Shown here piece after piece: positions 17,290 through 56,391 of a DNA stretch of 64,000 nucleotides (position 1 is its first letter; each line of letters opens with the position of its first letter). The DNA is from Phialocephala subalpina. Its lineage: Eukaryota > Ascomycota > Leotiomycetes > Helotiales > Mollisiaceae. A program made the position numbers and the translations under genes. The stretch spans positions 774,334 through 838,333 of the forward strand of contig FJOG01000028.1 in assembly GCA_900073065.1 (NCBI GenBank). Direction: 5' to 3'. The notes beneath the pieces were generated by a model. That model had not been told where the DNA came from. It saw nothing but the letters and a program-made list of their open reading frames with translations, and did not search any database.

Positions 17290-19146
17290 TCAGATATCGC
17301 TGCTGTCCTCCTCAAGGGAGTACACCTCGCACTCGGCGATCATAGTGCGAGCGGGAATGGTGACACAGATCGGGAAGCCACCATAATCCGGATCCTCATT
17401 TGGCATCATCAGGAACCTTCCGCTTCGAGTCTCATCGCCGTTGAGCTTCTTGCCCGTGATGAGCTTCCCGGTATCCTTGTCAACCACTTTCTCAGTGAAG
17501 TTCAAGATGCCCGTGAAAGTAGACTTTGGAGACGTGTTCTTGAACTCAGCCTGGAAGCCCCAACCGATCAAAAGGAATTTGGCTCCGCCTTGATGAATGA
17601 GCATCCCTGCACCAGGCCCTGGCTTTCCGAACACAAAGCAGCGATTGATGGTTACTTCAAAGTCACCGAAGCGTGCGACAGTTGGTAAGGAGGGGTCACG
17701 ACCATCTTCCAGCAGTTCGTCGAAAAAGAATCCTATCGAGGAACCAGGATTTCTGTGTGCTTCCAGGACAATTTCTTTGACCTGAGACAGCAAGCGATAG
17801 TGTCTTGTGAAAGGGTTTGTCTCTGGCTCCAATGTGTCGATACCAAATGGGGAAGTACCGATCGCTTGAAAGCTTCCGAACGCTTTCCAAATTCGGCGTG
17901 CACCATACTCATCGCGGCGCTGCTCTGGAATAAAGAGAGGTTGATTGAGGTGGCGATACTTCTTGCAGGATACGCTGTAGTCGTTCAGGTAGATATCCGG
18001 GGCGATGAAATCGAGTGATGGCGCGAATGTCCTCCAAATATCGAGAACGTTGCTGACTCCACCTCCAGAGGGATAATCCCCAGGCTCGCCTCCTCCTCCA
18101 GCAATGACTGGGAATGCGTTATCATCATCTGATCCCACATAGTTTTGCCACACATTGGTGTACAAAGGAATGCCGTATTCCTTCTTTCCAGCGGCAGCAA
18201 CGTGATTGACATACACGGCATAGTGGTAGGCCATGAAAAGCTCGTCCGTCTGCTTGCTCTTTCCAAATACGGTCTCCCATGAGCCCGCTTTGTGATCAAG
18301 ACTCTTGAATACCTGTAAATTACTCTTCAAGTCTGGAGACAGTGAATCCCAGTTTGATGAAAGATGTTCAACGAGCTCCTTGGGTACTTGCCCTGAAAAT
18401 TTCTTGTTCGCAGTGGCGCTGCCATCTCTAGAGTCGCCTAATAGGCCAGTCTCGTTCTCAACTTGAGTCATTATCACAGTGCCGTGAGCTTGATCGACTT
18501 CCTTCACATGACTCATCAAGGCAGAGAACGCTCGCGCGTCAGCATCCCGAACTCCGGTATGAAAGATCGAGACAACATCGGCGGTCTTAAGCACACCTCC
18601 CGCTTTTCTGAGATGAGCCCTTGGGAAGCGCTTGATGTCTTGCTTTACCCAAGAAGGTGCATATGATGAAAGGCCTAGAACCGGTCAGGGATTTCTGCAT
18701 CAGAGGTGCGATACTTACCATTCTTGAACGACCCAAACCAGAGAAGGACGAGATGAAGACCATGAGACCTCGCACCCTCGATGACCTTGTCTAATTCCGA
18801 GAAGTCAAACTTGCCCTCTACAGGCTCAATGTCCTCCCATGTAACGCAGCCCAAGACAGTATTGATATGGGTGTCAACAAGTTTTTGCCATACTGTATCC
18901 ACTACAAGAAGTCAGTAAGTGCTTTCAGGGGATGCTGAGGAGTCGAGGAGCCGAGATCTTCGGGAGCTCGACTCCCTACGGAATGGTAGAATCAGGGCGA
19001 TATCTATACATACTGTACGCAGACGAGGTCATGGAAGAATTTTGCAACTCAGCGCCGAGCATGAGAAACGGCTTCCCATTGACGATCAACTGCTGTGAGA
19101 TCTCAATGCTCTGCAAATGAGGTATCGCTTTGGTATTAGACGCCAT
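17290..19146 (-). CDS. GH35-like beta-galactosidase (DUF5597 type)
   Basis: Three exons: 19146-19014, 18901-18719 and 18674-17290. The first intron is the introner-like copy described separately. The protein opens with a TIM-barrel start (QLIVNGKPFLMLGAELQNSS), then VLGCVTWEDIEPVEGKFDFS and GLHLVLLWFGSFKNG. The acid/base motif is MTQVENETG and the probable nucleophile is the Glu of PLFIPEQRRDEYG. The C-terminal half (FGKPGPGAGMLIHQGG, FLLIGWGFQAEF) matches the beta-rich DUF5597 region. It should release galactose or a similar sugar from a small glycoside. No signal peptide is seen at MASNTKAIPHLQ, so it is probably intracellular and depends on uptake of the substrate. That fits the divergent sugar permease at 19851 and the Zn2Cys6 regulator beyond it. 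The exact substrate is inferred. Confidence 0.82.
18902..19013 (-). mobile_element. Introner-like intron, copy A (first intron of GH35-like gene)
   Basis: This 112-base intron runs from the donor at 19013 (GTATGT) to the acceptor at 18902. From about 16 bases inside the donor to the acceptor it is homologous to the esf2 intron 55828-55941. The first 61 aligned bases differ at four places, all C/T exchanges. Both copies end with the branch site and acceptor ACTTACTRACTTCTTGTAG. The middle has 9-base inverted arms (GGAGTCGAG at 18939-18947 and CTCGACTCC at 18967-18975) that can form a hairpin. The copy is in the sense orientation of its host gene. Confidence 0.85.
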
Positions 19147-19850
19147 GTTGGATGATAGAGGATACTCGGTTCGCATTGCGAGGTGGCTTTTGAATTATGC
19201 AGTCGAATGATCTTTCGAGGCAGTCAGAATGTCCTCGAGAAGATGAACGCGTCAGACCATTCTGATATATGTTGAAAGTGTCGCCTGGATCTCCCAGTGC
19301 CATGCAGTTGACACGAAGCCTTCAGTGTTGGAGATCTGCAAACCGGACCATCTCTCGACGAAACCCGGGAATGGGCAGTGTTGATTGGTCCACAGGCCGG
19401 ACCCCTCAAGAATACGCCAGCTTCCCCACCTCTACTCGGGTGACTTGGCAGGCTCAAAGTAATCCGAGTCATGTACCGATCAAACTGACTGTCAAGCGTG
19501 AGACTGACCTTTTGTGGGGAGAAGTGTTTAGTACTGATTGAGACTAGATCTAGTTTTTTTTTGAGGCGGGGAGCACGGGGAAGGGGAAGCAGGCTTCCTC
19601 CGACGGGAATTGCCCTTCCTGATTGGCCAGAATGCCGGTCCTGGCCCCCTAGTCAAAATGTTTCGGGTATCTGCTCTATGGACAGAACATCGTGGCTGGC
19701 ACCAGACCCTTCGTTCGAACTCGATTGAACGAGCAGAATTCTATATAAGCCCAGTGCCGACGATGGTTAAGGAGACATTTGACTTGAAAGGACAAACGAT
19801 TTTGTTAACAATCTTTGAACCATCATCATTGTTCCTCGCCGCATCAGACA
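19147..19850. promoter_or_regulatory. Bidirectional promoter of the beta-galactosidase / permease pair
   Basis: About 700 bases between divergent starts. On the permease side a TATA box (CTATATAAGC, 19741-19750) lies about 100 bases before the ATG. Two matches to the carbon-repression consensus SYGGRG occur (GTGGGG near 19513 and GCGGGG at 19566-19571). The motif is short and expected by chance, so CreA control is only a suggestion. The layout resembles the lacA-lacpA arrangement known in Aspergillus. Confidence 0.5.
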
Positions 19851-21922
19851 ATGGAGAAAGACTTCTCCGATCAGGCAGTGGCTCAGGTCGACCGCGGCGA
19901 TGTTGACAGGTTGGCGTATTCATACGAGCATGTTGACGGCTTGGATGTTCCCGAGGTGACCTGGTATAAACATCGCGGGCTTCGACGACTGTATCTTATG
20001 ATGCCGGTCCTGTTCCTCGGCTCCACGACGAATGGCTATGATGGCTCCTTGTTGAATGGCCTTCAGACAATGGGTCCATGGCAAGATTGTAAGCAATTCA
20101 TAATTTGGATTCCCAGAACAATGGTTAACGGGTCTTCGCGTCACAGATTTCAATCATCCCACTGGATCGAGACTCGGTCTTATTACTGCCATCCAGCAGA
20201 TTGGTGCAATATGCGCTTTATTATTCAGCTCATACATCGCGGACTTGTTTGGCAGAAGAATTGGCGTTTCCACTGGCATCCTCATGCTGTTGATTGGTAC
20301 TATATTGCAAGGTCAGTCATAGATGGGATGCGTAGAGAGCAAATCGTAGCTTACCTTTCCCGCAGTTGTTCCCGCGAGCAATCATCTGGGAATGTTTCTT
20401 GGAGGAAGATTTCTTGTTGGGTTCGGGTAAGTGATTTGACTCCTCATTCATCGATGGAGCCATGCAATTAACAAGACCACCAGATCCAACCTCTCGCAAG
20501 GTTCTGCTCCATTACTGATCATGGAACTTGCGCATCCTCAGCATCGCGGAAAGCTTACAACTATGTGAGTAGAATTCCCAGCAGGCGACGCTCTGCGATT
20601 GCTCACAGTGTCAAGGTATAACACACTGTGGTATATGGGCGCCATCATTGCTGCTTGGACAGTCTTCGGAACCGTAAAGTATACTTCGGATGCGGCGTGG
20701 AGGATCCCGGTCGGACTCCAAGGAGCCATGCCAGCTATTCAATTGGCGCTGGTTTTCTGCTTGCCTGAATCCCCACGATGTAAGTGTCAATTTCTCGGAG
20801 AGTATTCCCCTTTTCGTGTTGTCCATGGAGTGTATTGCTCCAAATGCATTCTCAAGACATGCATCTGCACTCCTCAAATATTCCAAAACAGTAAGCTGAC
20901 TCCGAGATCTTAATGAACAGGGCTTTGCTCCCAAGACAGACCAGATGAAGCATTCCAAATATTGGTCAAGGTAAGCCTCCATGTTCCGTACGATATTGTA
21001 TGCGTGTTAAATGCTGACGAGGATATTGGAGTATCATGCAAACGGCGACTCGACAGACCACTTTGTGAAGTCCGAATTTCAAGAGATCCAGGAGACCCTC
21101 CGCCTCGAGCAACTCAACTCGAAGAATGGCTGGGGCGAATTTTTGAAGACTCCCGGCAACCGAAAAAGGCTTCTGCTCATTGCTTTGGTCTCCTTCTTCT
21201 CCCAGTGCTCGGGCAACGGCCTCGCATCATACTATCTTCATGACATCTTGAACTCTGTCGGTATCACAACTTCGTACGACCAATCTCTCATCAATGGCGG
21301 CCTTCAAATCTGGTCGTTCTTGGTCGCAATATTCTTCTCACTCTGTGTTGACAAGATGGGAAGAAAAATGCTATTCATGATTGCTGGAGTTGGTATGCTC
21401 TTCACGTTCAGCACCTTGACTGCTTGTTCTGCCGTGTATGCACAGTCTGGGAACTCTGGGGCAGGAAGTGCTGTCATCGCCATGATCTTCTTGTTTTATG
21501 GTGTCGCTGGCTTCGCCTGGCCAGGCTTGACTGTCGCCTATTGTGCTGAGATTTTGCCGTACAACATTCGGGCCAAGGGCATGGCAATCAACCTCGCGTT
21601 GACTGCGACAGCTTCGGTTTTCAATCAATATGGTAAGCCCGCATATTTGCCTCCCTAGTCGAATCATGTGTGCTGACCAATTCAAGTAAATCCGATCGGA
21701 CTCCAACACCTCGCGTGGAAGTTCTATTTCGTGTATATCGCGATTCTCGTCATCGAGTGTCTTTGTATTTGGTTCCTGTTCGTGGAAACAAAGGGTCCAA
21801 CTCTTGAGGAAATTGCTCGGCTGTTCGATGGCGATGCAGCTAACGTCTCGGGAAAAGACGTCCTGGACGAGAAAGAGGTGGCTGCTAGACGTGGCCATGC
21901 CGAACATGTAGAGGAGATCTGA
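19851..21922 (+). CDS. MFS sugar transporter, lactose-permease type
   Basis: Eight exons (19851-20088, 20147-20311, 20366-20426, 20484-20564, 20616-20779, 20921-20970, 21032-21632, 21687-21922); all junctions keep frame. The protein of about 530 residues has the fungal sugar-porter pattern: NGYDGSLLNGLQTMGPWQDY in helix 1, the loop 2-3 motif ADLFGRRIG, FLGGRFLVGFGSNLSQGSAP, the PESPRW motif before the central loop, the loop 8-9 motif DKMGRKM, and VETKGPTLEEIARLFDG after helix 12. LLLIALVSFFSQCSGNGLAS and the NGYDGSLLN start resemble lactose/cellobiose permeases rather than hexose carriers. It shares a promoter with the GH35-like enzyme, so uptake of a beta-galactoside is the likely job. Confidence 0.88.
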
Positions 21923-22334
21923 GCCTGACATGTTATTGGCTCTCTAGAACCGAGTTCGGATAGGGGATGACTAAATTTTCTTCCCTTGAGGTAGAACCCC
22001 CATAGACTGGTTGAAAGTCCAAGGCTCCTCCTGATGCAAAGCGATACTGACCACGCCCGTTGTCGTCCTGAAACTGGTGAGATTTTAGGAATGAGCATAA
22101 AGAGTAAAATTTGATAGAAACCTCAAGTTACATTTAATCGATTCCCTTGGCTTGCTTGCCTTGAAATTCCGGTCCTGATAAAAGTGCCCGAATTTCTAAT
22201 ACTTTGGTGTGTCGCTTTTTCGAAAATGGCGAGCGGGGTTAGGCGCCGACATCTAATAAGAGGAACCATGGAGCTCCAATGTATAGCGATAGTAGTATAT
22301 ATTTCGAAATCATGGAATATTGAAGACGTTTTGA

Positions 22335-24248
22335 TCATATAATTGTGTCCGATACTCGAATGATACTTTCAGTGACACGACTTCTCTCAAGAAGTCTCTG
22401 GTCCTCGATAGCAAAGCCCTGCAAATCCGTGCCGAGGTAATTATCGGAGTATACCTTTTCGTCGAGGGCCAAAGCATGCTGGAGCAAGAACTTTACCATC
22501 CACTTATCGAATCGACTATAGATAAATCAGTATGAGATTTGAAGCATGATTTGGGAGTTGAGGAGCCGAGGAGCCGAGGAGCCGAGTTCATGGTACTCGT
22601 GAAGAGATCGGGCTCTGGATTTCTCTTCAAATAAAGGGCAAGAGTTCACGTACTGAGTTCCGAGTTGTGCCATCCTCAGGCAAGCATCTTGAAATGTGAT
22701 CAGTCTCTTCATCTAATTATCGAGTCAGTTTATACCTCAAATGTTCGTTAATGAATGAAACGCTACCATCAAGTCGACACTGGGCCAGATTGTCCTCAAT
22801 CTGACCAAATACTCAAAATTGTATTCAAGACGCTGTCTTGCCATCGGCAATTCGTCATCGTCTCCAAGTAACAGAGTGTGCAAGTGCACAGACGAAGAAA
22901 CAACAGTCATATGGCCCACAACATTGTGTAGAGCTTCGGCATTTCCATGCAGGGCCGAGCTTTCAATCAGTTCGCAAAAAGCTTTGGCGTGGTGCTTGCA
23001 GCGATGTGCAAACATCCTCGTTCTTGGCGTGATGGGACGGCTTTGATCAAGGTATTGATAATACAGCAGTGTCGAATAGTGATGATAGCCCATATGCAAA
23101 GCTACGAATGTTCGACCCGTGCCCCGGCGAACCTGTAAGTCGAGATTCTCCGACGTGAACACCAACATCGAAGGTAAATCTCTCTCAAAGGCAGCTAGTT
23201 GATCGGCTAGGCCGAGTACTTGAGAGTCGATGTCTTCTTCCTCCCAGTGCGGGCTCTCAACAAGGGCTTTGTTGAGATCTTGAATATGGCCAAAGATTTT
23301 AACCAACGTGATCATATGACTCCACATTCCTGGCTGCCACTTCTCTAGGTCTTCAATTGTCTCGCTAACACGAAGAGAACGAAATGCGACCTCGTCCATG
23401 GGGATCCGGGGGACAATGCCTCCATCGTGAAATTGGCGAGGCAATCCGAGGCCTGCGCTTGCCCAGCGGTCAATGAGGTACAAGCTCCACCATATTCGTC
23501 GCTTGACTTCGCGAGTGACAAGGTCTTCTTCGGTGTTTTCGTTTGCTAATTTTAGCAATTGTGCCATACGATTGGCGATGACTGAGACAGCATTTAGTGT
23601 GGGTATTGACGATGTTAGGCAATGCAGGTGAAAGTTCCAAGCGCCAGGACTTCGAGGTGCGGACTAATGGGCGACAAACCAAAATAGAGGGATTCTGCGT
23701 CCGCATTTGACTCTGCTAGACATATATTTCCACATAGGACACATGCTTGGATGCTTTCGACGCAGATGTCTTCGAGACCTTGCTGGCACAATCTTTTTGC
23801 CTCTGACGCCCACGCGTGACCTTGGGTGCGGATATCCTCTTTGGATGAAAATCTAGACAAATCAGATACACATTTGAATTCCAGATTTAAAAACTCACCT
23901 AGCTGATAGACCAAATATTCCGAATAGAACTGCCGGAGACGATGTGCCATCTTTTGCGGAGTTCTTGAGAGACGGCTCATGAAAGAGGGTATGTGGTTTG
24001 TCGTGAATGTAGCAAATATAGAGATCGATGAGGTCTAGTACGACATCGATTGATGGCAATGGTAAACTTTCATCCCGCATTAAAGCCTGGTTGTGCGGAA
24101 TGAGCTTTGCAGGCGTCGTGGACACACGGTTCGAGCTTGAGCAATGAAGCCGACGCCTCTCGCATTGATGGCAAGCGCTTCCTAGAGCTAGTTTCTCGCA
24201 CTTTCGTTTGCCCTGTCTGCATTGTAAGCACGCTGAGCCTAGCTTCAT
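22335..24248 (-). CDS. Zn2Cys6 transcription factor with fungal middle homology region
   Basis: Five exons (24248-23899, 23852-23680, 23581-22767, 22712-22654, 22515-22335), each junction in frame. The binuclear zinc cluster is at the N-terminus (residues about 5-35: SACLQCRQGKRKCEKLALGS, then ACHQCERRRLHC, six cysteines in the usual spacing). The fungal-specific middle domain follows, with VKRRIWWSLYLIDRWASAGL as its clear marker and GLPRQFHDGGIVPRIP next to it. An ATG 34 codons upstream (24350) is possible but adds a Cys/Arg-rich leader, so I prefer 24248. It lies tail-to-tail with the sugar permease and could be the cluster regulator; that is inference from position. The last intron (22516-22653) carries an odd repeat. 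Confidence 0.82.
22516..22653 (-). repeat. Long repeat-bearing last intron of the Zn2Cys6 gene
   Basis: A 138-base intron from GTACGT (22653) to CTATAG (22516). It contains three tandem copies of the 9-mer GAGGAGCCG-type unit at about 22561-22587 (plus strand). The neighbouring text CTCGGCTCCTCG is shared with the introner-like copies at 18.9 and 55.8 kb, but the rest is too different to call it a copy. Confidence 0.45.
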
Positions 24249-24884
24249 GGCGGTGCATTTTGTCAGTTGAGTGTGGGTGAGGTTAAGACTTGAAGTCCGA
24301 GGTTCTCGTTTTCTGCGCCTCAGGCAACCACATAGGCAAAAGCGCTCCAATGAGCACAGCCAAACACGGGCCTCGCTTAGATGGAGAGGGAAAAGGGGTT
24401 CATTTCAGTACCGCGAGGGACTTTGGTAATTCCAGCTCTCAGAATATATAGAGGCTTTATCGGCACTTTACAAAGATTCTAATACGTCTCAGTAAGCTAC
24501 TGAATTGAATGAGCTTGTAGCCCGGGCATCTCTAGCTTGTCAACCAATTCCAGTCGCTGACAATAGATTTCCAATCCCGTTCGAGGACCTGATAGAGTCA
24601 AATTCATTCCGATCTGATACAGACAATCTCAGCCTACCTTTATTCAAGCAGGCTTCCACGTGCGAACGCGTGAACCTGATGGTTCATTTCGGCGCTAGCG
24701 CGTTCTCTGAATACCTTCATTTACTCCATAAATCCCTTGCCCTCAAGCCACCAACACGACACCGCCCGACCATCTAAGAAACGTGCGTCGCATCGCAGCT
24801 CCTGTCTGCCACCATTTGCGCCGTCAGTCCATATTCTATTCTCGTCGCACTCAATGTGTCGTGCTAACACTGTCTATGCAGATC
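24249..24884. other. Promoter region of the Zn2Cys6 gene and the small tail-anchored gene
   Basis: Divergent intergenic region of about 640 bases. It has no supported ORF. A TATA-like ATATATAG lies near 24445. Confidence 0.35.
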
Positions 24885-25381
24885 ATGTCAACACAAGAGG
24901 TATGCGCTGCGCATTTCCCCAAACTGATCATCTTCGCACGCCGCGCTTGACAACACAAGTTCGTAGCAGGTGTTGTACCAGCTAACAGAATGTAGCATGG
25001 CGGGTTCGATGAGTGCACTGAGCTTCGCAACCAATCGTGGGCCGAGTTCATCGCAGATACGTTGACTCGGGAAGGTGAGAGGGGAAACATCTCCAAGCCG
25101 GACCCCGAGCACGTGAGATCATGCATTTTCCCAGGTAGTTGCATATTACTAATGTGGTATAGCTTCAAGGGATATTCTAGATTGTAGTCGAAACATCTAA
25201 GAATGAACTGAGACTTGAACCACTCGAAGAGGTATTGAGACGTGAAAAGGAGGGGGTACAACGAGCCATCGCAGATGAAGTGTGGAAGACTGTTCGTGGA
25301 GTTCTGCTACTGGTTATCATCTTCATTTTGGCGGCGGTCTTCCTACTATGGAAGCTCGGCAAATTCGTGGCTGCAATGTAG
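24885..25381 (+). CDS. Small C-tail-anchored membrane protein, unknown family
   Basis: Three short exons (24885-24899, 24996-25112, 25181-25381) give a 110-residue protein. The introns are GTATGC...TGTAG and GTGAGA...TCTAG and both keep phase 0. The N-terminal part is hydrophilic and acidic (FDECTELRNQSWAEFIADTL), then a charged helix (ELRLEPLEEVLRREKEGVQR), and the end is one strong hydrophobic helix (GVLLLVIIFILAAVFLLWKL) followed by GKFVAAM. This is the shape of a tail-anchored protein inserted post-translationally in the ER or outer mitochondrial membrane. I do not recognise a family. Support is the consistent splicing plus the terminal helix; the first exon of five codons is the weakest part. 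Confidence 0.5.
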
Positions 25382-25699
25382 ATCACAGCTAGATAACATA
25401 GCCACTTCAATGAAAACAGATTGTGTATCACTTCCCCGGTATCAGCACTCCTCTTTCAACTACCGGGTAATCGATCCAATGTCCAAGCCTACTTTCGAGG
25501 CAACCTTGTCAAATGTTCTGGCGCCCAGCCGTACAATTGCGAGCTTTGGCTATATACTCTCTTTATCCCATCCTCTTCTTCACAACGGTGGGGGACGACG
25601 ATTCAGCACCTGTCAAGAGCAGAGTTTTACTCTGCGGGTGTCCTCTACGAACCTGTAGCACCTTGAGAGCTTGATCTACTTCTCAAATTGGATTGAGCG

Positions 25700-26644
25700 T
25701 ATCTGCGGATGCGCAACAAGACCCCAGAGCTAAAACTGAATCAATCCAACGATACTCGAGGTAATTAGAAGAAAGAATTGCGCGCGATCGCAGAGTTTTT
25801 CCCCTTAGGGTTTTTAGACATCAGCAACATCAAATTATATCAATTGCAACACTACAACCATTAAAAGTCGCATCGATAAAAAGCTAGCGCGTAAGGAGAT
25901 TTTCTTTTGTCGATAACCTCTCGATTTCTACTACCGTGGCCTCTTCTTTTTCTCTTTATTATAACTATAACTACAACTCGAACTACGATAGCATATTGCT
26001 TTACTACGATAATACTTTGTCTTCTTTTATTTAAATTAAGCCTCTACTACTTACACCTCGAAGATATTTACACCCGGGTTACATTACGAAAAAGGATCAA
26101 GAGCGGGGATACAAGTCTTGAAGGAAGCGAGAAAGGTTATCGATAAATAAAGGGGTGACTATATATTTAGCTGGCGAGAGAAATAAGGGAGAAAAGGCTC
26201 GAAGAGTAGGGATTAGGAAGTTTTCGATATTGCGCCTTTGTGTGCACTTTAAGGCTCACGTTACTGCCGAGGAAGAGGGGTCTAGAATATTATTATCGAA
26301 TTTGTTAAAAGAAAGTTTTTAACTTACATCGAGCCTACTTAGGATTCGGCTCTAAAGGTTCTAGATACCTTTCTACAGGAGCACATCTTTCTTAGAATTC
26401 AGCCCAATCAGCAGGGAGGTTTTCTATCACTAAGCCCTTTTAATTAGGCGCGGTTTATATGAATTGCTTTCTTATAAGTTAGGCATTACAATACCGCGGG
26501 ATTAAAGACCCGGTTTTGCTCTAAAGGATATCTTTTAGTGTGCTCTAAAGCAAAACTGTAATTCTGAAGCTTAGTACGACCCCGTACCCCACGGAAGGTC
26601 CTAGGATTGCAGCCTTTGGCTGCCATCCGCTGGTCGTAAATCAA

Positions 26645-26681
<37 letters not shown>

Positions 26682-26685
26682 TCAC
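25700..26685 (+). mobile_element. Decayed non-LTR (LINE, Tad-like) 3' end
   Basis: An A+T-rich stretch without usable ORFs ends in TGGCTGCCATCCGCTGGTCG followed by an (ACT)n tail at about 26646-26678. That 3' end, a short GC-rich terminal motif and then a trinucleotide repeat, is the usual form of fungal Tad-clade LINEs. The body is rich in TA and poor in intact codons, which fits repeat-induced point mutation. The 5' limit is not defined and no reverse transcriptase can be read, so the boundaries are approximate. Confidence 0.45.
26646..26678. repeat. (ACT)n microsatellite
   Basis: About eleven perfect copies of ACT in a row, directly after the putative LINE terminus. It is probably the element's tail rather than an independent microsatellite. 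Confidence 0.9.
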
Positions 26686-27990
26686 AGCGGTATTATCAAA
26701 GAGAGAATCGTAAGCCCAAACAATTGATCGGCCTGGGGGCAATTGAAGCGAGGAACTCGACCCTACCCCTTTGATTCCTGGTGATCAGTACCCACCAGTA
26801 TACATTCATCGCTTGATAACACAGGTCGGGTAAGCTTTCCGGACACATCCAACCTACTGACCAAGCAGTAGCAGAGAACTTTCCCTTCTCATTTTTTGTA
26901 TGCGTCCCCGGATTGTCCATCTGCTGCGGAGGCCTTACAGCGGTATAATTGTCGCTTCTTCGGAGGGGTAGGTGGAGAGGCGGGAATCGTGCAAGAACGC
27001 GGACATCAATCCGCGGATCGGTCCGCCGGGAGGGAGGTGAAGCGGTGCTAACAGACATAGGATCTTATAGAGAGGTACTTGATTTGAAGCATCTCGCACA
27101 TGTCTCCACCTCAATCTGCCACAGTGGATGGCCTTCTAGATTCGGGTGTTGTAGATTCGCCTTTATTCTTTCGTATCTGAAAGTCCCTCGCCTGCTGGGT
27201 CTCCACGAAGCATGATGTCGGTCTCGAGCTTGGTATCGTGCAGAAAATGCCTTGTCTTTCAAAGAAGAAACTGTGCGTGAGGTCGGCAGTCTCGTGGAGC
27301 TTTCGGAGATCGAGGGCATTGGACCATCGTCAAGCAACTTAATCGCCGTATCGATTTCCGTCGACGTGAGTCGGCATACCCCACTCAAAGATTCGGGGAG
27401 CTTGTTAGGCGTCGGAGATTTCCGTAATTGATGCTCGAGAGTCGACGTGCAGAGCTGTGGAGATCATTACTAGTAAAATCGAAGCGGTCCTGTTGGTTTT
27501 GAGGTGACGGGACCTGGGAGATTCAAAATCTTGGTAACATGTGACTCCCACTAACGCCTCCGTCTTCCTTTCTTCCTTCCTTTCTCCTGTCTTGCGCCCA
27601 AATCTAATGTTTTCACTTCTCAGGCCTGTGTGCCCAGTATCCCTGCTCCGTCCGTATGTGTTTCACGGGCAGCGAAGACTCACAGTTGAGATGCAAGCTC
27701 TGAAGCACAAGCAAACGATCCTCAATTTGCGATATTTCGGTTTCTAGAACCAATGCTGTTCGAGCCGTAACACAATTCCAGTGGCTATTCTGATATCGTT
27801 GACTGGATCCAGGGTCACCCGTCGTAAGGCAGCGATGAGTGTTTGGGTTTAGTTGAGTCGCCTTCTTGCCATGCCATAAAGGAGCTTTTATACTCTGTCT
27901 TCGCTTACTGGTAGCTGTTTTTTTGTACGTGCTTAGCATTCACGCGAACGCAGAACTTCTTTCTTGCAAGCTATATAGCAAGGACAGGGT
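26686..27990. other. Gene-poor region, nothing firmly supported
   Basis: Short ORFs occur on both strands (for example minus 27388-27065, containing RRGTFRYERIKANLQHP) but I could not link them by splicing or assign a family. They may be remnants of an old gene or element. Confidence 0.3.
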
Positions 27991-40725: not shown

Positions 40726-41225
40726 GATCCGACCATACCTAGGGGTGATCTTGTGTCGCAGCCTGATTGCTGGGAATGATGGGATGGAGGGGATTGGTGA
40801 GTGATTTTCTGGGAGGGTTAGTGATCGGTTTTGGTAATTTGGGTTGGTGATTGGATGGTCGGTGAGCAGGACTGAGTAAGATGGTTTGCGGTCGTACAGT
40901 AAGACCAGCAAGTGATGAGTACCGTATGACTAGTAGCCGAGGACGAGACGCAGCATAAAGTCGACGATAAAGCTAGATCCGACCATACCTAGGGGTGATC
41001 TTGTGTCGCAGCCTGATTGCTGGGAATGATGGGATGGAGGGGATTGGTGAGTGATTTTCTGGGAGGGTTAGTGATCGGTTTTGGTAATTTGGGTTGGTGA
41101 TTGGATGGTCGGTGAGCAGGACTGAGTAAGATGGTTTGCGGTCGTACAGTAAGACCAGCAAGTGATGAGTACCGTATGACTAGTAGCCGAGGACGAGACG
41201 CAGCATAAAGTCGACGATAAAGCTA
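40726..41225. repeat. Perfect tandem duplication, 2 x 250 bases
   Basis: Copy 1 is 40726-40975 and copy 2 is 40976-41225, head to tail and identical as far as read. Both contain GACCATACCTAGGGGTGATC and TCGACGATAAAGCTA. The repeat is intergenic. Its period equals that of the duplications at 1853 and 60837. Confidence 0.95.
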
Positions 41226-46344: not shown

Positions 46345-46683
46345 TCGGGGTCTCTCAACCCTATGAACAACCAGAAGTCCTCCCCGAGTCCTTGCCAACG
46401 GCGCAATCTTGCACAACTTCCACGTGACCACTATACGGATGCATAATTGTACCCACAGCCGCGGCCGCGTCAAGTCGCGTCTTCCGAACCTCACTTCGAT
46501 GATATGAGAACCGATCTCTTTTCTCCTTTTTGGACAAATTGTACTTCTCTTGTATCTATAGATTGTCCCCCATTCATCGACTTCCGAACCCACATTCTCC
46601 GTAAATCGATCGACACTTTGCTCTCATGAATGTTTTTTTTTTCTAATCAGACTTTGAGCATCCCTAGGAGTATTCGCGCAAGA

Positions 46684-46916: not shown

Positions 46917-47049
46917 ACACAAAAACGCTCACGTACTGACTTCGAAGAATGTTCAGGTCCTTCAACAACCCCAAAGCCAGCCAAGGTCACCAAGAAAATG
47001 CTTTCTCTGCTATGATGAGCAATGTAAAACAAAGCACCAACTCTAGGAA

Positions 47050-48611
47050 ATGGACAAACCAAATTGTGACCTCGAAGGCTTCACGGAAGACTTCGAGCAG
47101 GTTCTGAATGGACGGGATATTGCCAGTGACTGGCACCGACAAGAAGCCAATTGGGCATCCTTCATTACGAACGCCATCAAGGACTACATCAATACTCGCA
47201 CCTTACCCCATCTCCGGTCAGCCTCTCACTTGCAGACGAAGATCAACGCACTGCATATGATGATCGATATTGCTACTGGTATTGCGTATGCACCGGAAGG
47301 CAGTATATCGCGAGATATGTCTCGAAGCCATGTACCGAGGTTTTTACTTGACCAAATGTACAATCTTGTGAACAAGATGTCGACTTCCGAGGTAAGACAG
47401 CTTGTGAAGGAGAAATACTTCATACATAAGGCCAAAACATTTCGCCGGGAGCCACTCATGAAATGGGAAGGTGCTACCTGGAACGGTCTGGACGAAATCT
47501 TGAGAGTTGTGAAGGACCCTGGACCAGTGGACTTCCGGAGAATCTACTCCGATGTCGAGCAGCAACTGAATGTTGGCCGATATTCCAGCACGTCTGGTGT
47601 CCTGGTTGTTCGAATCGTTCGCAATATGTCACCCGGTCCATGTGCTTCGAGACAATATACAACGCGATTAAGGCTTTAGTGGAAATGGATATGCTCCTCA
47701 TGAGGAGAACTATCTCTCTCGAAGATCGAAAAATCATTTTCGATACTCTTTCCGGCGCTCTCTTGACTATTGGTCAGCCGTTCAATGAAGAAGAGGTTTC
47801 CAAAATCCTGAGGGGAATGCAGTCCGAGGAGTCAATGTCCGATTCGGGCTGGTTGTGCCAATTTCTTAGCGTCATGGACTGTAACATGAGGAGACCTATG
47901 AGACCATACTCCTAGGGTTATGACTACGACATTCCCGATACGAACTTTGCAGCTCAGTGCGCACAACGACGAATTCTGGAGAACGCGGTGGATCGTAAGA
48001 AGTCACAAACGTCGAGTGTGTACGGACAGAAAGGGCTTCTGGTGAAAATCTTATACATGAGGTACTCTGGGACTAGCGGCCGTGAGGATGCTAAAGATAG
48101 GCTGAATGAGACCGTATTGTTATTTCCTGACAGGTCAGCTCCATTGGAATCAAAGCACGTACTGGGAAGACTGGACGAGACTCTTTCCCACTGCGTGCGG
48201 ATCACGTCCTATGTACACGATGCTCGACTAGCCGGAGCTGTGAAAGATATCCAAACATCTATCGATCGCAGCATATCCCAAGTATCAAAGAACGCGACCG
48301 GAGGGACCAGCTTGGAAGTGAGGCGTAGTTCTCTCAAGATTCTTACCGAGATTGGACTGCGAATTGTCGAATGGTGTCACATTTCACGTCCGCAGTGGCA
48401 TCGGGAAATCTTCCGAGATCATCTCTCGGAGGGTTCTTTGACGGACGCCATGATGCTCATTTGTGATTCTTTAAGCAAGTCGGATTGGATGCGAGTAATG
48501 GAGGACCAAGAATTTCTGAATGAGATGTTGGAATTGGATGTACGACGCTTGCCCCGAATCGATGGAAGGGCTGGATCCTGTCCTCGGGATCATTCAAGAT
48601 CCCGACCATGA
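47050..48611 (+). CDS. Unknown gene, probably three exons
   Basis: Three open blocks: 47050-about 47508 (MDKPNCDLEGFTEDFEQVLN to DEILRV), about 47589-47870 (containing FETIYNAIKALVEMDMLLMR and KIIFDTLSGALLTIGQPFNE) and 47916-48611 (GYDYDIPDTNFAAQ to SRSRP). An 80-base GTGAAG...TTCCAG intron ending about 47588 would join blocks 1 and 2 in frame. Blocks 2 and 3 share one frame interrupted by TAG at 47913; a 45-base GTCATG...CCTAG intron would remove it. The protein looks helical and contains KDIQTSIDRSISQVSK. I do not recognise a domain. It may be a real hypothetical protein or a gene starting to decay. Confidence 0.4.
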
Positions 48612-48710
48612 GACTTCGAAGGCCACGAGATGCCCCAAAGACACGGTTCCAGTGCTAGGGGAGAGCATCATTGACCGGACGGATGATTAGATGCCGCCAA
48701 TCTTTCTGCT

Positions 48711-48871
48711 CATACGTTTTCAATCTCCCAACCTAGCAAGGACAATCGAGGAGGCTAGGTTAGGCTGAGATACTGCATGCAGTAAAGTCTTCTAGTATTA
48801 GTCAACGAGCGTCCTTGCTTACGGAAATGAGTCCCAAAGATTGCGGGCAAGGATGGAAGATAAAAGCGCTG
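48711..48871. mobile_element. Degenerate hAT-like MITE, copy 2
   Basis: About 161 bases matching the MITE at 57292-57450 along its length. The left half is clear (GACAATCGAGGAGGCT and TAGGCTGAGATA are shared exactly). The right end (AAGGATGGAAG, then AAAAGCGCTG) is a weaker match to the other copy's right inverted repeat. The termini have mutated (CATACG instead of CAGCG) and no target duplication remains. It lies just after the unknown gene. Confidence 0.65.
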
Positions 48872-49676
48872 GCCAGCCGATGTATGTCCAGAAGGACATC
48901 AAACGACGAATGATGGCTGGCACTTGAAATCAAATTTCGATGGGCTGGCAGATGTTGATTGCTAGTCACTTCCTCAGGAAGAAGTGATAATTCGTGTCAT
49001 CACGGCAACAATCTCCAGGCTCCTGCCCGCTCTTCGACCTTTATGCCTCGAAGTGTATAAATTACGAGCAGTACTAGTACTGTACATTCAATGGCATAGA
49101 TGTACTATAGAGGACTTGGGTCTTGGCGCTCTAGGGCTACATGCTGAAGCAAGGGGAGACGATGTTCTTCGTGGATCTTTTAGAAGTTTGGCTTACAAAT
49201 GGTAAGGAAGCGGTTCTAGACCATTTTGGAAATCTTTCCAGTTATATCATAGTAACAGTCTTTTTGATTTTTGTGCCTGTCCAGCATATGTCCACGGCGC
49301 CTGGTTTGAACAGAGCCTTGACATCTCCAGTCCTGCTCGTTTGCTTTGATGTTGTCTTTGCTCCCTTTTGAAATAGAAGCCCAAGCGATGTTCCATTACT
49401 TTCTGGTCTAGCTAAAGGTGAATGGCTGTCAATGTCCGACCCAGCAAAGATGAAAATGTCGAGGCTCTGTCACTTTCGGCATGCGGACATTCTGATAAGA
49501 GTAATTCACTTTCATTATCGCGGCTACGACCATCTATAGCCTCATCTTCGTTACTAGTGCCCAAAAGTAATACTACTCCATCTTGCCAGAAAACTTCCTA
49601 GAAGCGCATCAACAGCCTCATAACACATTTTGCTTTGCTTATTACTGAGCTCGCAAAGCCTCGAAAAATAGCAAGC
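48872..49676. other. Intergenic region, nothing recognised
   Basis: About 800 bases. Short ORFs have no recognisable content. The right part is the leader of the gene starting at 49677. Confidence 0.45.
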
Positions 49677-51294
49677 ATGTCGGCGCAAGACATAACGGCG
49701 ACGAACCAACTTAGCATTGGCAATGGCAGTATGTCTTCCGGTACCAGTTATCATGCCCAGTCAAATTAACCTTCAAGTTAACGCGTATTCTCAGGTCCTA
49801 ATATTACGCCCAATCCCAATCCAAACGAACCCATCAACTATGAGCAGGTAGAGAGAGCTCGAGCTCAGACAGAAGAATTCCAAGCACCCCAGAAGAGATA
49901 CAAGACGCAGTCAGGACACATTAGAATGCCAGGATCCGTCGCCCAAGACGAACACCTCGATGTCCGCAAACGCAAGCTCCCGCGAGCTAGACGCAGTTCC
50001 TCGGAGACCATACGCCCAGGGGACATTGACTCGGCCGATACCACTGTGCAAAAGTCGCCAACGTCCCCTGATAGGATCGCGCCAGTCAACTTTCCAGCCC
50101 TTCGTCTTCTTTCGGCAAATCCCGTTGTTCCCATCATTAGAAACCCGGATCTCATCAAATCTGGTGTTACTCACGCGCTCTTCCATCCTACCCTTGGCAT
50201 CATCCCAATTCACGGTTGGTTGGTGCGAGAGCTGTTCCCATTCCTCGCCCAGATCTCTCCCCTGACCTCTCGGTTGGCCTCTATGGACCACTTGACATTT
50301 GGTGCCAATCGAATTTCCACGAATGTCCTTGGTAGTATGGAACAACGCGTTACACCCGACCCTCCATTTGATGCCAATTGGGACCCAGGACTCAAACCCC
50401 CCGCACCAAATGTTCATGGTTAGTCACGTGGACCCCTGAAAGAGAGGTCTTCCGCTAACATGAGCAGATGGGATCAACGAAGTTATCTCATTGACCAACT
50501 TCGTGATCAGTTCCGCCGCAGGAACCCCAGCTCCCGCAAACATTATGTCCATCGTCGAAGCTCGTATTCCTCTTCAGCATCAGAGAATGCGTTCTACTCA
50601 CAGAATTGACCCGTCAAAGATGCAGACAATGGGGGACACTCGTCGCAACATGGATTTCCTGGCTAACGAGTTGCCTGTGACGTGGGATGATGATTTTATT
50701 GACCGCGAGGTGAAGGATCCCGACGTTGAGAATCTGAAGCATCTGGTTGCCATTGGTGTTATGAAGGCGGGTAGTCCCATTGTGTTGGCAGCATTAAGAC
50801 AGGTGGACAAGGAAATAGGGGAGGGACCAAAGATAAGGCATCTGTTGGAGCGCAAGTGGCAATCGGAGCGTTCTGCTTCTTCCCGTTATACTCTCAACCG
50901 CGGTGATCAATCTCCTGAGTACGCCTTCAATCTCGATATTACCAACAGCTTGGGTGCATGTTTTGCACGTGGTGGTAAGTCACTTTCCAATATCCTTACG
51001 TGTTTTTGGTCCTTCTGAAGCATCGAAGATACTGTCAAAGGAATTTGCTAACTCCAATCTTCTGATCAGGACCTGGAACAGATGAAATCATTGCCTCGGC
51101 GGTACATAACATTTCAAACTTTCTTGGTTTTGCAGACAACGGCTGACTGGTCTTCGCAGAAACGCTATAAGCAACAACAACTTGAGAAGCAAAGCTTCAA
51201 GACCTATGATAACCTGTTCACGGCCGTTATGGAAGAGATAAGGAAGGACCATCGTGTGACTTCAATTGCTTGGCGAGTAAACCAGCTTGGATGA
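49677..51294 (+). CDS. Unknown multi-exon protein
   Basis: Exons 49677-49728, 49795-50418 and 50468-50974 are joined by canonical introns that keep frame. A further exon enters near 51070 (DEIIASA) and continues from about 51128 (TTADWSSQKRYKQQQLEK) to a stop at 51294. The 3' end is uncertain; a very acidic stretch at 51300-51400 (GDEDSESREDGHDGFDDD) may belong to it through another splice. The N-terminus is polar (NITPNPNPNEPINYEQVE), and the middle is compact and conserved-looking (HPTLGIIPIHGWLVRELFPF, NRISTNVLGSMEQ, LKHLVAIGVMKAGSPIVLAA). No family is recognised and no signal or membrane segment is seen. Confidence 0.5.
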
Positions 51295-51461
51295 CTACTC
51301 CAGAGCAAGATTATGGCGATGAAGATTCCGAGAGTAGAGAGGATGGACACGATGGATTCGATGACGATGGAGATGATAGTGGCAACGGAAACCAGCTGAG
51401 GATGGAGATTCTGATGCTACGCACTTTGGCTCAGAGGAGACAGTCTACCACGATCCTATAG

Positions 51462-51993
51462 ATGAAGCCCTTTGATGTCTGATACCGCACAGGCGGATCT
51501 TTGTATGGTTGGAATGTGGTCCTCTAGGAGGCCTTTGATGTAGATTAGTGTTTCGGAGTTTATGGCGCAGGGAGGAGATACCCACTTAGAGTCCCAAATA
51601 TCCACAAAAAGGATAAAAACCGCTCTCCTACCATCCTGGTCTGCAAAGCAGAAGACAATAAATCAATGTAAACTACCCCAAAAGTCCCGATTCCCTTGAT
51701 GCATTGAGAGCCCCATTCATTCAAAACATAAGCTCAGATATGACAACCCCAAGCTTTTTGTCCCCTCCTTCTATAATCTAACAGATATTACTGCTTTTTG
51801 GTGACAATACGAAGTTTCTTCGTCCGCCAATAGTATTACATCCAGCTCGAAATGAACCGACTCCCTTAGTAGAAATACAATTAATTTATACTCATATACA
51901 TATTCAAATCTCCCCAAATGTGCTCCTGTCCCAACTCACAGTTCAAATACCTCCTCTCTTGTCCCATGTCTCTCCTTAGTTTGAGGCGTTCTT
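51462..51993. other. Intergenic region between convergent genes
   Basis: About 530 A+T-rich bases with no ORF of note, probably two 3' UTRs. Confidence 0.5.
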
Positions 51994-52361
51994 TCAGTAG
52001 GCACGACCACGGCTCATTCTTCGCGCATGGTGTACAACCCTTCCTCCCAGCCCACAACTATACGAACTGGCTCTCGATCTAGCGTCTTCGCGGCGCGACA
52101 CGTCGAAGTGATCGAATGCTTCGAGTTCTGCGTCTGCGTCGTCGACGATTGCTGTGGAGGCGATAGCTTTTTCGCGCATGAGGGAGATACTGTGGAAGAG
52201 TCAGAGAGAGGAACGGTGGCAATGAGGCGTAGGAGTGCTTACTCATCTTCACTGTAGCCAGGAAAGTGTATGGCTGGTCCTGATTGGAAGTTGAAAGGCG
52301 GACTCTGGTTTTCATCAGCGAAGTATCTTCGATTGATGTCTCTGACGGCAACCCACAATTT
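51994..52361 (-). CDS. 3' exons of an unknown gene
   Basis: Two exons, 52361-52243 and 52189-51994, joined by a GTAAGC...CACAG intron that keeps phase. They encode KLWVAVRDINRRYFADENQ, then SPPFNFQSGPAIHFPGYSED, DISLMREKAIASTAIVDD and a C-terminus ending HHARRMSRGRAY. The exon begins at an acceptor (AAGCTAG). The upstream exon was not resolved; an open stretch at about 52372-52540 (KLFKLLKMFPCAHLSDNIF) is a candidate but no donor fits. I do not recognise the family. Confidence 0.4.
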
Positions 52362-52561
52362 CTAGCTTTGGTCTAGGTTTCGATTTCAGGCCCAAGGTCT
52401 CGAGGCATCGGTTGCCGATCCTAAAGATGTTGTCGGAGAGGTGCGCGCAGGGAAACATTTTGAGGAGCTTGAAGAGCTTCTTGATGATCGAGACGGTAGA
52501 GGTGGTGTCGGCGAGTTTATAGAAGACAGAAAAGCTTAATACTAATAACACAGGATATTGG

Positions 52562-53654
52562 AAAGACTATATGTGAAAAAAGGCCGAGATGACGCGCTTG
52601 CTGAAGAACGGACTAAAACTAAAACAAAAGAGCGAATGCGGCAAGGACAGTAAGAACGAAGGCCACCAGGAAAGACTGTGTGTTGAAGTTGGATTGATGT
52701 GGAGAGCACTTGAGAAAGTTCCCATAGTACGGGGAATTTCGAAGATATAAGTATTAAGCTTCAAAGGAAGCGGGAAGCCGAGGAAATTTCCTGCTGCTAG
52801 GGGCAACACAATACAAAATTCGAGAAATTAGGAAGAGTCAGTAGCACAATAGGAACGAACGGGTGGCGTCAGACGTACCATTCTCAATGTTGCAGAGAAA
52901 TGGATGAACTTAGGCAATGATTCAGTTGCTCCTTGCGCGAGGAAATTTGGTTGCCATGGGCTGATGAATCCCGACGTACCGTGGAATGTTGACGAAACCA
53001 GCAGCTCTCAAGTCCAAGACCGTGAGACAAGCGACGGCCTCGTCTTCGGAACTTGGTCAGCCTTAAGGCAAGTTCGAAAAGTGATCAAGTTGTATCGGAG
53101 ATATTTTGATCGTCGTGGCTTCCAAGCTTTCCGTACAGCAAAGAAGGTACGACGGGAACGATGCGGGGGATGCAAGGAAATCCCATAGAAGAAGGAGCTT
53201 ATCTTGTGATACAATATTCTGTGAAGGTCCCCATTTTCCGCAGCAAGGTTCCGAATTCCGTGCAAGGACCCGTCGTTCCTGTTCAAGGGATGGCGTCAAA
53301 AGGGGTCCAATCACGGGATATCAAGGGATCGCTTAATCCACAACCAGGAGCATTTTGTAACCACGTGCGACCATGTATCTGTCACTGAACATCGAAATTT
53401 CCTGTGTATTCATAGTCAGTCGCTCGCTCAAACTTCTGCTCTATCGAAGGCCTAGATGTGAGCCATAAGGTATTTTGAATATCCACATGGCGGAAAATGA
53501 GGTCAACACGAGATTTGTGATTCGAGATTCATTGGGCTTGTCTATGTCGTTGATGATGGTAACGCAAGATACCCGAGACCTCGTGTTGCTAAGTAATTTG
53601 TTGGGGCTGAAGCGTCAGGTCGCCGATGGCATGGCATTCTCGCTGATGGTCCTC
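52562..53654. other. Intergenic region, nothing recognised
   Basis: About 1.1 kb between the unknown minus-strand gene and the aldehyde dehydrogenase. Overlapping short ORFs in opposite frames give no coding signal. Confidence 0.5.
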
Positions 53655-55168
53655 TCATTTTGGATAGTCCTTCACATGGAATGATTTCAGCTTCACAAAC
53701 TGGTCGAACCCGTATTTTGAGAGCGTTTGGCCTTTTCCGGAATTCTTCCAGCCGGTCCATGCGAGATCCTATTATGGTCAATATTGTCCCTACCGAAATG
53801 GAACATTTTGGGACTTACTGGGCTAGGGAAGTCACATCTGTTGACGAAAACTGTTCCTGCGTCCACCTCCCCAGCCAACTCAGCCCCTTTGCTCGTATCC
53901 TTGGTCCATATAGAGGCAGTCAAACCAAATTCGCTATCATTCATCAGTTTGATAGCTTCGGCATCTCCCTTAACCTTCATGACCGGGATGACAGGACCAA
54001 ACGTCTCCTCAGTCATGACCGTCATACTATGATCAACATTAGTAAGGAGAGTTGGCTTTACGAAGTTGCCCTCGGATGGAGGAGAATTGAACGATTCGTT
54101 TTCAGGAGTGGCGTCTGTGGCTCCCTTGTCGAGTGCATCCTTGATATGTGCCTCAATTGTTTCCTTCGACCGTTTCGATATAACTGGTCCAACATGCGTC
54201 GACTTGTCGAAAGGATCGCCGAGCTTGTAATTCTTCAGGACGTTTTGTACTTCTTCAACGAATTTGTCATGAACGCTCTCGTCGACGTAGATACGCTCCA
54301 AACTACAGCAGCTCTGACCCGAGTTGAAGACTGCTCCGTCGACGATCTCCTCTGCTGCCCATGCAAGGTCGACATCTGATCTGATATATGCAGGATCCTT
54401 GCCACCAAGCTCCAATCCTACGCCGACAACCCTGTCTGCTGCAGCCTTTTGGACAGCCAAGCCACCTGCCACAGATCCTGTGAAGCATACAAGTGCGACT
54501 TTAGGGTCCCTAACAATTGACTCGATTATGAGAGGGGATCCGCAGTGGAAGTACTGAATAACGTTTTTAAGAAGGCCAGCTTCTTCGAAGATGGATTGCA
54601 TGTGTTCGACGACCGTAGGTGTTTGCGGTGAAGGTTTCAGGATCACCGAATTACCTGCGAGAAGTGCAGGTATCAAGCTATTGACGAGGATAAGATATGG
54701 GTACTGGGGAAAGGAGCGAAAGGGTTAGTAAAATGACCTAGCACTTCAAGGGCATTCACTTACATTCCAAGCAAACAGAATAAGAACTGGCCCAACCGGG
54801 ACCTTTCTAATAAATCTCTTGAAGCCCCTCTCAGATTCACCAGGCGTATCCGCCAAGGTCTCCTCACTGATCTTAAGAAGGTACTCTCCCCTCTTAACAG
54901 CCGTGGTAACTTCCTTCGCAGTATATGCAATTGGCCTTCCCATCTGCTCCGTAAGCTCCTTGGCGAGCTCATCTTGTTTGTCGTTCAGAAGCTTCAAGGC
55001 CTTCTTAACAATAGCTTGTCTGTCCACTAGGCTTGTCTTTCTGAAGCTTAAGAACGCTTCCGTTGCCACTTCTGGCAGGAGCTCCAGATCAGAGCTCGAG
55101 ATGCCATTTCGGGTCACCACTGGCTTATTGGTAGTCGGTGAGATAGTCGTGAGGGTTTCGACGGACAT
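53655..55168 (-). CDS. Aldehyde dehydrogenase family protein
   Basis: Three exons: 55168-54764, 54703-53819 and 53768-53655; both introns keep frame. The last intron is needed to restore the normal ending, DLAWTGWKNSGKGQTLSKYG and then DYPK. NAD(P)-binding and catalytic features are complete: NSVILKPSPQTPTVVEHMQ, the FTGSVAGG nucleotide loop, the general base in LELGGKDPAYI and the nucleophile in FNSGQSCCSLERIYV, followed by TEETFGPVIPVM. The sequence is closest in style to the soluble fungal group resembling succinate-semialdehyde or betaine-type dehydrogenases, but the substrate cannot be told. No targeting signal is seen. It is divergent from esf2, about 210 bases away. Confidence 0.9.
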
Positions 55169-55380
55169 TTTGATGTCTAAATTGTATGTTGCAAGGTGAA
55201 AAGTTCCGTAAACAAAGTGGGATGAAATTGTTTGAAAAGGTACGATTCAGCGACGTGCCCCGCCGAGCCCACTATTACAATTCTTATCGAAATTACAGGG
55301 GTTGCGTTCCGCTATCGCCAACCTTATTTTTGTCTTGCAGCCTCTCGAAAAAGTTTCACCGAACAAGGGACATATGCAAA

Positions 55381-56391
55381 ATGGCGACGAGAAAGCACAA
55401 CGAATTCTTGGATGCGGATGCGAGTGAAGACGATCAGAGTCAGGGCTATGATTCCGAGATTGAGGATTTGAAAAAGGGCGAGAGAAGTGCGAAGAGGAGG
55501 AAGGTGGAAAGCGATGTCAGCGACGGCGACGACGATGATGCAGAGGAAGGAACCCAGAAAAAGAGCAAATCGGCAGAATTGCCCGGTGTTTCGAAGTCAC
55601 TCACGAAGAAGAATCTCGTTGCGACAGAGAAAGCGATAAAAAAATCCGGCGTGGTCTACCTCTCCCGAATACCACCCTTCATGAAGCCTTCAAAACTACG
55701 ATCACTACTCGAGCCATATGGCGCAATCAATCGCATATTCCTTACACCAGAAGATCCAACATCGCATACTCGGCGAGTCCGCAATGGAGGAAACAAGAAG
55801 CGGTCGTTTGTGGACGGCTGGATCGAAGTAAATCCCACCCTGATTCTACCATTTCGTAGGGAGTCGAGCTCTCGAAGATCTCGGCTCCCCGATTCCTCGA
55901 CTCGTCATTATCCTTTGAAACCACTTACTAACTTCTTGTAGTGGGTGAACAAAGCTGAAGCAAAGCAAGTTTGTGAGCTATTGAATGCAAAGACTATCGG
56001 AGGAAAGAAAGGCACATACTATCACGACGATGTGTGGAATCTGCTATATCTGAAAGGATTCAAATGGAACAACTTGACCGAGCAGATCGCTGCTGAGAAC
56101 GCGGAGAGAGCGAGCAGGATGAGAGCGGAAATCAGCAAGACTACCAAGGAGAACAAGGAGTTCGTGCAGAACGTGGAGAGAGCGAAGATGCTGGAGACTA
56201 TGGAGGCGAAGAAGGCGGCGAAGGCGGCGAAGAAGAGAAAGGAGGATCCAGGTGCAGTGAGCACGAGCGAAGCGCCGATTTCAAAGAAGGCCGAGAGACC
56301 AAGGCATTTCAAACAGACGACGGTGGCGGCGAAGAGGAAACCAGAAGATCAGCCTGAGCAGGTGAAGAGAGTGCTCAGCAAGATCTTCTGA
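55381..56391 (+). CDS. esf2: Pre-rRNA processing protein Esf2 (ABT1 family)
   Basis: Two exons, 55381-55827 and 55942-56391. The acidic, Lys-rich N-terminus (MATRKHNEFLDADASEDDQ) precedes the ABT1/Esf2 RNA-recognition domain: GVVYLSRIPPFMKPSKLRSL, GAINRIFLTPED, KKRSFVDGWIE, then after the intron WVNKAEAKQVCELLNAKTIG and DDVWNLLYLKGFKWNNLTEQ, a hallmark of the family. A basic coiled tail follows (EAKKAAKAAKKRKEDPG). Esf2 works with the helicase Dbp8 in early 18S processing in the nucleolus. The intron splits the RRM in phase 0 and is an introner-like copy. A second ribosome-assembly gene, dbp7, lies 9 kb away, probably by chance. Confidence 0.93.
55828..55941 (+). mobile_element. Introner-like intron, copy B (esf2 intron)
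   Basis: This 114-base intron runs from GTAAAT at 55828 to TTGTAG at 55941. From CCCTGATTCTACCATT at about 55838 to the acceptor it is homologous to the GH35-like intron 18902-19013. Inverted arms GGAGTCGAG (55860-55868) and CTCGACTC (55896-55903) are present here too. It is in the sense orientation of esf2. Confidence 0.85.

Follow-up and report, generated by a model that had tools for sequence, protein, structure and literature searches.

Two introns in unrelated genes of the fungus Phialocephala subalpina (Leotiomycetes, Helotiales, Mollisiaceae), the first intron of a GH35-like beta-galactosidase gene and the sole intron of esf2, are almost certainly copies of one mobile family of fungal introner-like elements (ILEs), that is, complete spliceosomal introns with donor, branch site and acceptor that would copy themselves into the exons of unrelated genes. 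Both lie in a stretch of 64,000 nucleotides, hereafter the window (contig FJOG01000028.1, positions 774334-838333), of an assembly of 68,147,902 bases in 119 contigs, which is probably the published Roche/454 assembly (PMC5148876). The family has at least 88 distinct places in the genome and its new feature is a strong preference for N|TG(G) targets, where the bar marks the insertion point. Taken together, the observations lead us to favor, with reasonable though far from full confidence, a mobile ILE family whose insertion is RNA-mediated, linked to transcription and guided by the target; for the RNA-mediated step taken by itself, we put the chances only a little above even.

The positions proposed for the two introns in an initial annotation of the window (19013-18902 on the minus strand and 55828-55941 on the plus strand) are borne out by the sequence. 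The introns align with 84% identity over 104 columns with one 8-base gap (BLASTN, E 3e-31), and the next-best window matches to either of them span about 30 bases or less. An ungapped stretch read by eye agrees with the earlier description of a best segment of 61 bases with four differences, all C/T. Homology does extend to the acceptor, as had been noticed, but the start proposed for it, 10-16 bases into the intron, is not borne out: across the family, homology begins with the donor base itself (GTATGTATAAATCC...). The window copies look unlike at their 5' start owing to a loss of 6 bases in the esf2 copy (GTATGTATAAATCC to GTAAATCC) and to point changes in the GH35 copy. A 5' truncation of the esf2 copy, considered as a mark of target-primed reverse transcription, was dropped since the 6-base deletion accounts for it. 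The 8-base gap corresponds to a single CTCGACTC/CTCGGCTC unit, which is tandemly repeated in a number that varies among copies.

The wider family anticipated from these two introns is present in the genome, in unrelated genes. A whole-genome search with each window copy gave 82 candidates, 40 of which were scored, all matching (40/40). In pattern searches, the 3' end was matched 108 times with 3 mismatches allowed (reversed control: 44) and a longer 3' pattern 66 times (control: 0); the middle and 5'-end patterns gave 62 and 69 matches, with 0 for each reversed control. Merging the places listed for the two window copies and for the short 3', middle and 5' patterns produced 110 clusters, 82 of them supported beyond the short 3' pattern. 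Among the other 28, two (L063 and L070) read as full copies, two more were confirmed with a long-copy query and two with a form-B query (one of these partial), and these six bring the count to at least 88. We read 74 copies from end to end (54 among L001-L090, 20 among L091-L110), the other 14 places having coordinates only. Local hopping was rejected, since the likeness of neighboring copies (11 pairs) does not exceed that of random pairs (P 0.69). As regards spacing, adjacent copies lie within 55 kb in 16 cases against 5.9 expected (P 0.0002), a threshold picked after looking; a within-contig shuffle on 77 copies gave 15 against 7.3 (P 0.002), and at 25 kb there is no excess (3 against 2.7).

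Could the likeness simply reflect ordinary ancient introns, or segmental or gene duplication? The two window introns are 37 kb apart on the same contig, which would suit duplication, but no pair of the 74 loci scores above 35 when their 100-base flanks are locally aligned and the host genes of the read copies span many protein families. With 0 pairs sharing similar flanks, segmental or gene duplication is rejected for the copies read. Antiquity fares no better at the GH35 site: among 14 proteins fetched, 12 cover the intron-1 position and none carries an insert there (0/12). Moreover, in P0130, P0171, P0172 and P0191 additional residues stand precisely where intron 2 lies, as unspliced read-through would give, so the absence of intron 1 from them does not come from splicing. 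The orthologue comparison suggested in the initial annotation thus shows that intron 1 is absent in four relatives and is not an old intron shared at that site; we consider ancient introns or duplication scarcely credible as an explanation of the family. At esf2, 15 proteins are continuous over the intron site, which is weaker since some may derive from transcripts or spliced models; the comparison with the permease relative P0243 (96% identical) has the same limit, its source being possibly a transcript. Copies of the main form, form A, diverge from their consensus by 5.2% on average (range 1.8-10.8%, 62 copies) and nearest-neighbor identity among the 74 has a median of 94% and a maximum of 99%, with no identical pair. 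Judged from these distances, copying is recent on the evolutionary scale, current activity being unproven. The earlier suggestion that intron birth is caught in progress is not supported, given this mean divergence and a closest pair at 99%.

The 74 copies measure 95-146 bases, mostly 104-120, and 60 of them have lengths of 96, 104, 112, 120, 128 or 136, 8-base steps that are explained by the CTCGACTC/CTCGGCTC repeat. GT..AG limits are found in 74/74, a GTATGT start in 67/74, and a CTRAY branch motif within the last 25 bases in 67/74; the acceptor is TAG in 69, CAG in 4 and AAG in 1. A CCA is kept shortly before the branch site in 65/74 (56/62, 7/9 and 2/3 in forms A, B and C). These forms, sorted by eye, comprise 62 A copies, mostly with a CCGAA loop, 9 B copies, most with an end like CCATGCTAACTTCTTGTAG, and 3 C copies, which measure 135-146 bases and contain an additional inner segment; the long form is possibly the older state from which the short forms lost this segment. 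Within the A copies, changes are fewer than expected at the donor (8 against 25.8) and the acceptor (14 against 29.3), as expected of introns in use; at the branch region the deficit is borderline (15 against 22.8, P 0.056).

The 5' arm of a hairpin ending 45 bases before the 3' end of the element has changed less than expected (20 against 38.7, P 0.0007), but its 3' arm shows no deficit (36 against 36.1), and a block thought to be specially conserved, GCATCCTTTGAAAC, is no colder than average (44 against 45.6). The arms proposed earlier, GAGTCGAG/CTCGACTC, do pair in the minimum-energy folds of the GH35 copy and L023, but not in those of the esf2 copy, L002 and L043, which fold through GGAGTCGAGCTC with GAGCTCGGCTCC. 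All five copies fold only modestly better than shuffled sequences (z -0.58 to -2.60). An Rfam search of window positions 18850-19060, the GH35 copy only, gave a single match, on the opposite strand, whose 15.5 bits fall below the gathering score of 37. With regard to DNA transposons, direct repeats of 2-8 bases, indicative of a target-site duplication (TSD), are no more frequent than under permutation (74 copies), and there are no terminal inverted repeats (TIRs), the first 12 bases matching the reversed end at 4/12. Twin introns were not seen among the 74 copies, where single GT..AG limits were examined and no search was made beyond these.

The strongest feature of the family, its target preference, is not reported in the initial annotation. 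The downstream exon starts with T in 70 of the 74 copies, TG in 64 and TGG in 43, and the upstream exon ends with A in 47. Set against a background drawn from flanks 6-96 bases away in the same loci, not from ordinary introns of the genome, TG at +1/+2 stands at 64/74 versus 8.2% (P about 1e-58) and A at -1 at 47/74 versus 24.9% (P about 3e-12). The counts by form are 53/62 (A), 9/9 (B) and 2/3 (C) for TG, and 41/62, 6/9 and 0/3 for A at -1; an A|T junction occurs in 45/74. Phase 1 introns prevail (42, against 18 in phase 0 and 14 in phase 2), as expected if Met codons are often hit as A|TG. In the GH35 gene the junction Met is kept in 11/11 relatives fetched, in the permease hosting L036 it is kept in 9/9, and at L091 the junction Trp is common to both solved lipases shown. 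From these protein comparisons, the TG seems to predate insertion in the GH35 and permease genes.

Where a judgement could be made, the read copies lie in coding exons in the sense orientation, some short readings being left undecided, and the open frame obtained after splicing is longer in sense than in antisense in 67/74. Retention would bring an in-frame stop in 74/74, in the frame judged best, and would also shift the frame in 48. Pfam scans, which covered the 74 sense-frame peptides only (E 0.001 for the first sets and 0.01 for the later ones, with 6 of the first 30 rescanned), found a family above its curated cut-off in 37/74, the match running through the junction in 33 by hand count. 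For the junctions in Hsp70 (L043) and xanthine dehydrogenase (L099), alignment to solved structures shows neither a gap nor an additional residue. In 3/3 cases checked, the annotated P. subalpina protein matches exact excision of the element: spliced Esf2 equals P0001 (100% identity over 298 aa), the spliced GH35 product includes all 566 aa of P0121 at 100%, and the third is permease P0241, the L036 host. This P0241 is without about 24 residues near the N-terminus that are found in relatives, which is probably an annotation or indel problem.

The initial annotation held that mostly intergenic or antisense copies would speak against ILEs; none of the 74 copies read (0/74) was shown to be either. 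This also bears on transposition at the DNA level. Helitrons insert between A and T without TSD, have TC...CTRR ends and carry a 3' hairpin 10-12 bases from the end. A non-autonomous, Helitron-like element whose antisense and intergenic copies were lost or escaped detection would thus fit the T at +1, the A|T junctions and the lack of TSD. However, the elements end in GT...AG instead of TC...CTRR and their hairpin lies 45 bases from the 3' end. Helitrons are reported to make up 0.3% of the P. subalpina genome (PMC5148876), but none of the 74 copies was shown to be intergenic or antisense although coding exons, as we calculate from published counts of genes, exons and introns (PMC5148876), take up about half of that genome. 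We judge a Helitron-like origin unlikely.

The reading of a mobile, RNA-mediated and target-reading ILE family has to be set against a number of points that weigh against it: (i), the support for splicing comes from annotated proteins, and annotation is not RNA evidence; (ii), orientation was read at 74/88 places and 14 places are without such a reading; (iii), the antisense frame is the longer one in 7/74 (L005, L032, L039, L074, L094, L101, L104). In this group, acyl-CoA dehydrogenase domains exceed the cut-off in L039, one of them crossing the junction, and L032 has a sub-threshold MFS match; Pfam gave no match for L074, L094, L101 and L104, which presumably resemble known proteins, nor for L005, whose sense reading is unproven. 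Further, (iv), 37/74 sense peptides have no Pfam domain above cut-off; (v), covariation in the second hairpin is no greater than in shuffles (43 sequences), which gives no support to a structure kept by covariation, and neither the shuffles (5 copies) nor covariation (43 copies) proves that a structure is maintained; (vi), the TG(G) motif is unlike the AGGT proto-splice site, described as a preferred site of intron gain (PMC3443670); and (vii), junction residues are not kept everywhere. The Trp (TGG) that follows the esf2 junction seems not to be ancestral, being Phe or Tyr in each of 24 relatives fetched (1923 found), and in place of the junction Met of L067 (RidA-like) the two solved structures shown have Val or Phe, so insertion may not be perfectly seamless everywhere. 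These two sites would suit a mobile unit that ends in ...GTAG-TG(G), carrying the TG(G) itself and overwriting target bases. The residues kept in relatives reject this for the GH35, permease and lipase-like genes, although not for esf2 and L067, and as an account of the family we hold it very improbable.

How does this family compare with known systems? Like the ILEs of Dothideomycetes (Fulvia fulva, Dothistroma septosporum, Zymoseptoria tritici and others), it consists of complete spliceosomal introns that are almost identical and lie in unrelated genes; also shared are sense orientation, hairpin potential, several forms, the lack of TSD and TIR, absence in relatives (one site tested here) and excess length, here mostly 104-120 bases against a genome mean of 80.2 (PMC5148876). 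The host differs, being a member of the Leotiomycetes, and the comparison made here is one of described traits; the N|TG(G) preference also differs from insertion sites called "seemingly random" (PMC8469720). The symmetrical stwintrons and cropped sister introns of Hypoxylaceae/Xylariaceae (Sordariomycetes) are likewise seamless repeats that function on the coding strand only and lack TSD, but they are highly symmetrical, with terminal inverted repeats, and many are twin, whereas the P. subalpina elements have no terminal inverted repeats. Their flanking exons are reported to show no nucleotide bias (PMC12403724 and PMC8469720), unlike the strong flank bias of the P. subalpina family. DNA-transposon introners (Gozashti et al. 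2022, PMC9860276) are also repeated introns enriched in genes; many of their families have TSDs and/or TIRs, ascomycete families being outliers with neither, and this survey of annotated genomes describes Pezizomycotina introners as without TIR or TSD (PMC9860276). Having no TSD and no TIR, the P. subalpina family fits these outliers. We found no report of introners in Phialocephala, Helotiales or Leotiomycetes in the available open literature, supplements and subscription papers lying outside this scope; P. subalpina may be listed in the supplementary species tables of PMC9860276. ILEs thus appear to extend to the Leotiomycetes.

Regarding mechanism, placement in exons in sense, complete splice signals, seamless joins and the lack of TSD and TIR fit an RNA intermediate linked to transcription. 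In the explanation we favor, excised intron RNA would be re-inserted by a splicing-like reaction into a transcribed gene on its coding strand, the recipient being either the mRNA or single-stranded coding DNA in an R-loop, and the insertion point would be followed by TG and often preceded by A. The inserted intron would then be copied to DNA and kept owing to its clean splicing out. An RNA intermediate is also what has been inferred in print for fungal ILEs, and PMC3443670, PMC3879977 and PMC8469720 discuss reverse splicing with mRNA or, directly, coding-strand DNA as its target. Alternatively, intron RNA could be captured during double-strand-break repair of transcribed genes, a model for the Hypoxylaceae sister introns proposed for Hypoxylon (PMC8469720), and seamless insertion, the lack of TSD and a foldable intron would all agree with it. 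Random breaks should, however, lead to random sites, as PMC8469720 reports; a random-capture model predicts no site rule and here the sites are strongly TG(G), which makes break-repair capture an improbable source of the family.

Returning to RNA-mediated, target-reading insertion, the TG(G) rule implies that the target is read at some step, unless the rule arose by selection once the element was in place. A more specific version, sequence-specific homing, would have the excised intron RNA directed to A|TGG-like sites in the coding strand of transcribed genes; we advance it tentatively and consider it rather less probable than its failure. Perhaps pairing of the target with intron or spliceosomal RNA directs such homing, and as a guess the conserved CCA could pair with TGG; a guide encoded by the intron is speculation. 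In group II retrohoming, intron RNA enters a strand of DNA where it meets a preferred sequence. This serves as a working model only: the P. subalpina element is too short for the protein of such introns and has canonical spliceosomal signals.

Table 1. Coordinates of the introner-like copies, their parts and their host genes (window positions unless a locus is named).
Feature	Position	Strand	Remarks
ILE copy, GH35 intron 1	18902..19013	-	112 bases, GTATGT...TTCTTGTAG; exact removal agrees with annotated P0121
Hairpin 5' arm, GH35 copy	18964..18975	-	GGAGTCGAGCTC, 12-bp hairpin; pairing counted over 43 copies
Hairpin 3' arm, GH35 copy	18947..18958	-	GATCTCGGCTCC; one mismatch against family GAGCTCGGCTCC
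Branch-site-like TACTGAC, GH35 copy	18911..18917	-	Family form TACTAAC; sequence and alignment
TGG adjoining GH35 copy, target side	18899..18901	-	A before the copy at 19014; codon A|TG is Met, kept in relatives fetched
ILE copy, sole intron of esf2	55828..55941	+	114 bases; donor GTAAAT after 6-base deletion; exact removal agrees with P0001
Hairpin 5' arm, esf2 copy	55860..55871	+	Sequence and alignment
Hairpin 3' arm, esf2 copy	55877..55888	+	Sequence and alignment
Branch-site-like TACTAAC, esf2 copy	55926..55932	+	Sequence and alignment
TGG (Trp) adjoining esf2 copy	55942..55944	+	Phe or Tyr there in relatives fetched
Long-form (C) copies	L095:353-495, L099:368-513, L108:371-505		Extra inner segment
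GH35-like beta-galactosidase coding region	17290..19146	-	Introns 19013-18902 and 18718-18675, by eye against P0121
ESF2 (18S rRNA factor 2)	55381..56391	+	298 aa, one intron; spliced protein against P0001

Other repeats occur in the window. Three exact tandem duplications of 250 bases each lie at 1853-2352, 40726-41225 and 60837-61336; the identical 250-base unit, in what is probably a Roche/454 assembly, suggests a contig-joining artefact, and a promoter/terminator scan of one of them (1800-2400) found nothing. A second pair of 112-base repeats, 72% alike, lies at 48715-48826 and 57295-57406.

The origin of new introns is an open question, with ascomycete introners a difficult case since DNA-transposon marks are missing from them. 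The target preference of the P. subalpina family gives a handle on intron birth: with a clear rule for the insertion site, insertion that had been called "seemingly random" becomes open to testing, in vivo or in vitro. If homing is true, ILE insertion would be a targeted reverse-splicing reaction rather than random capture.

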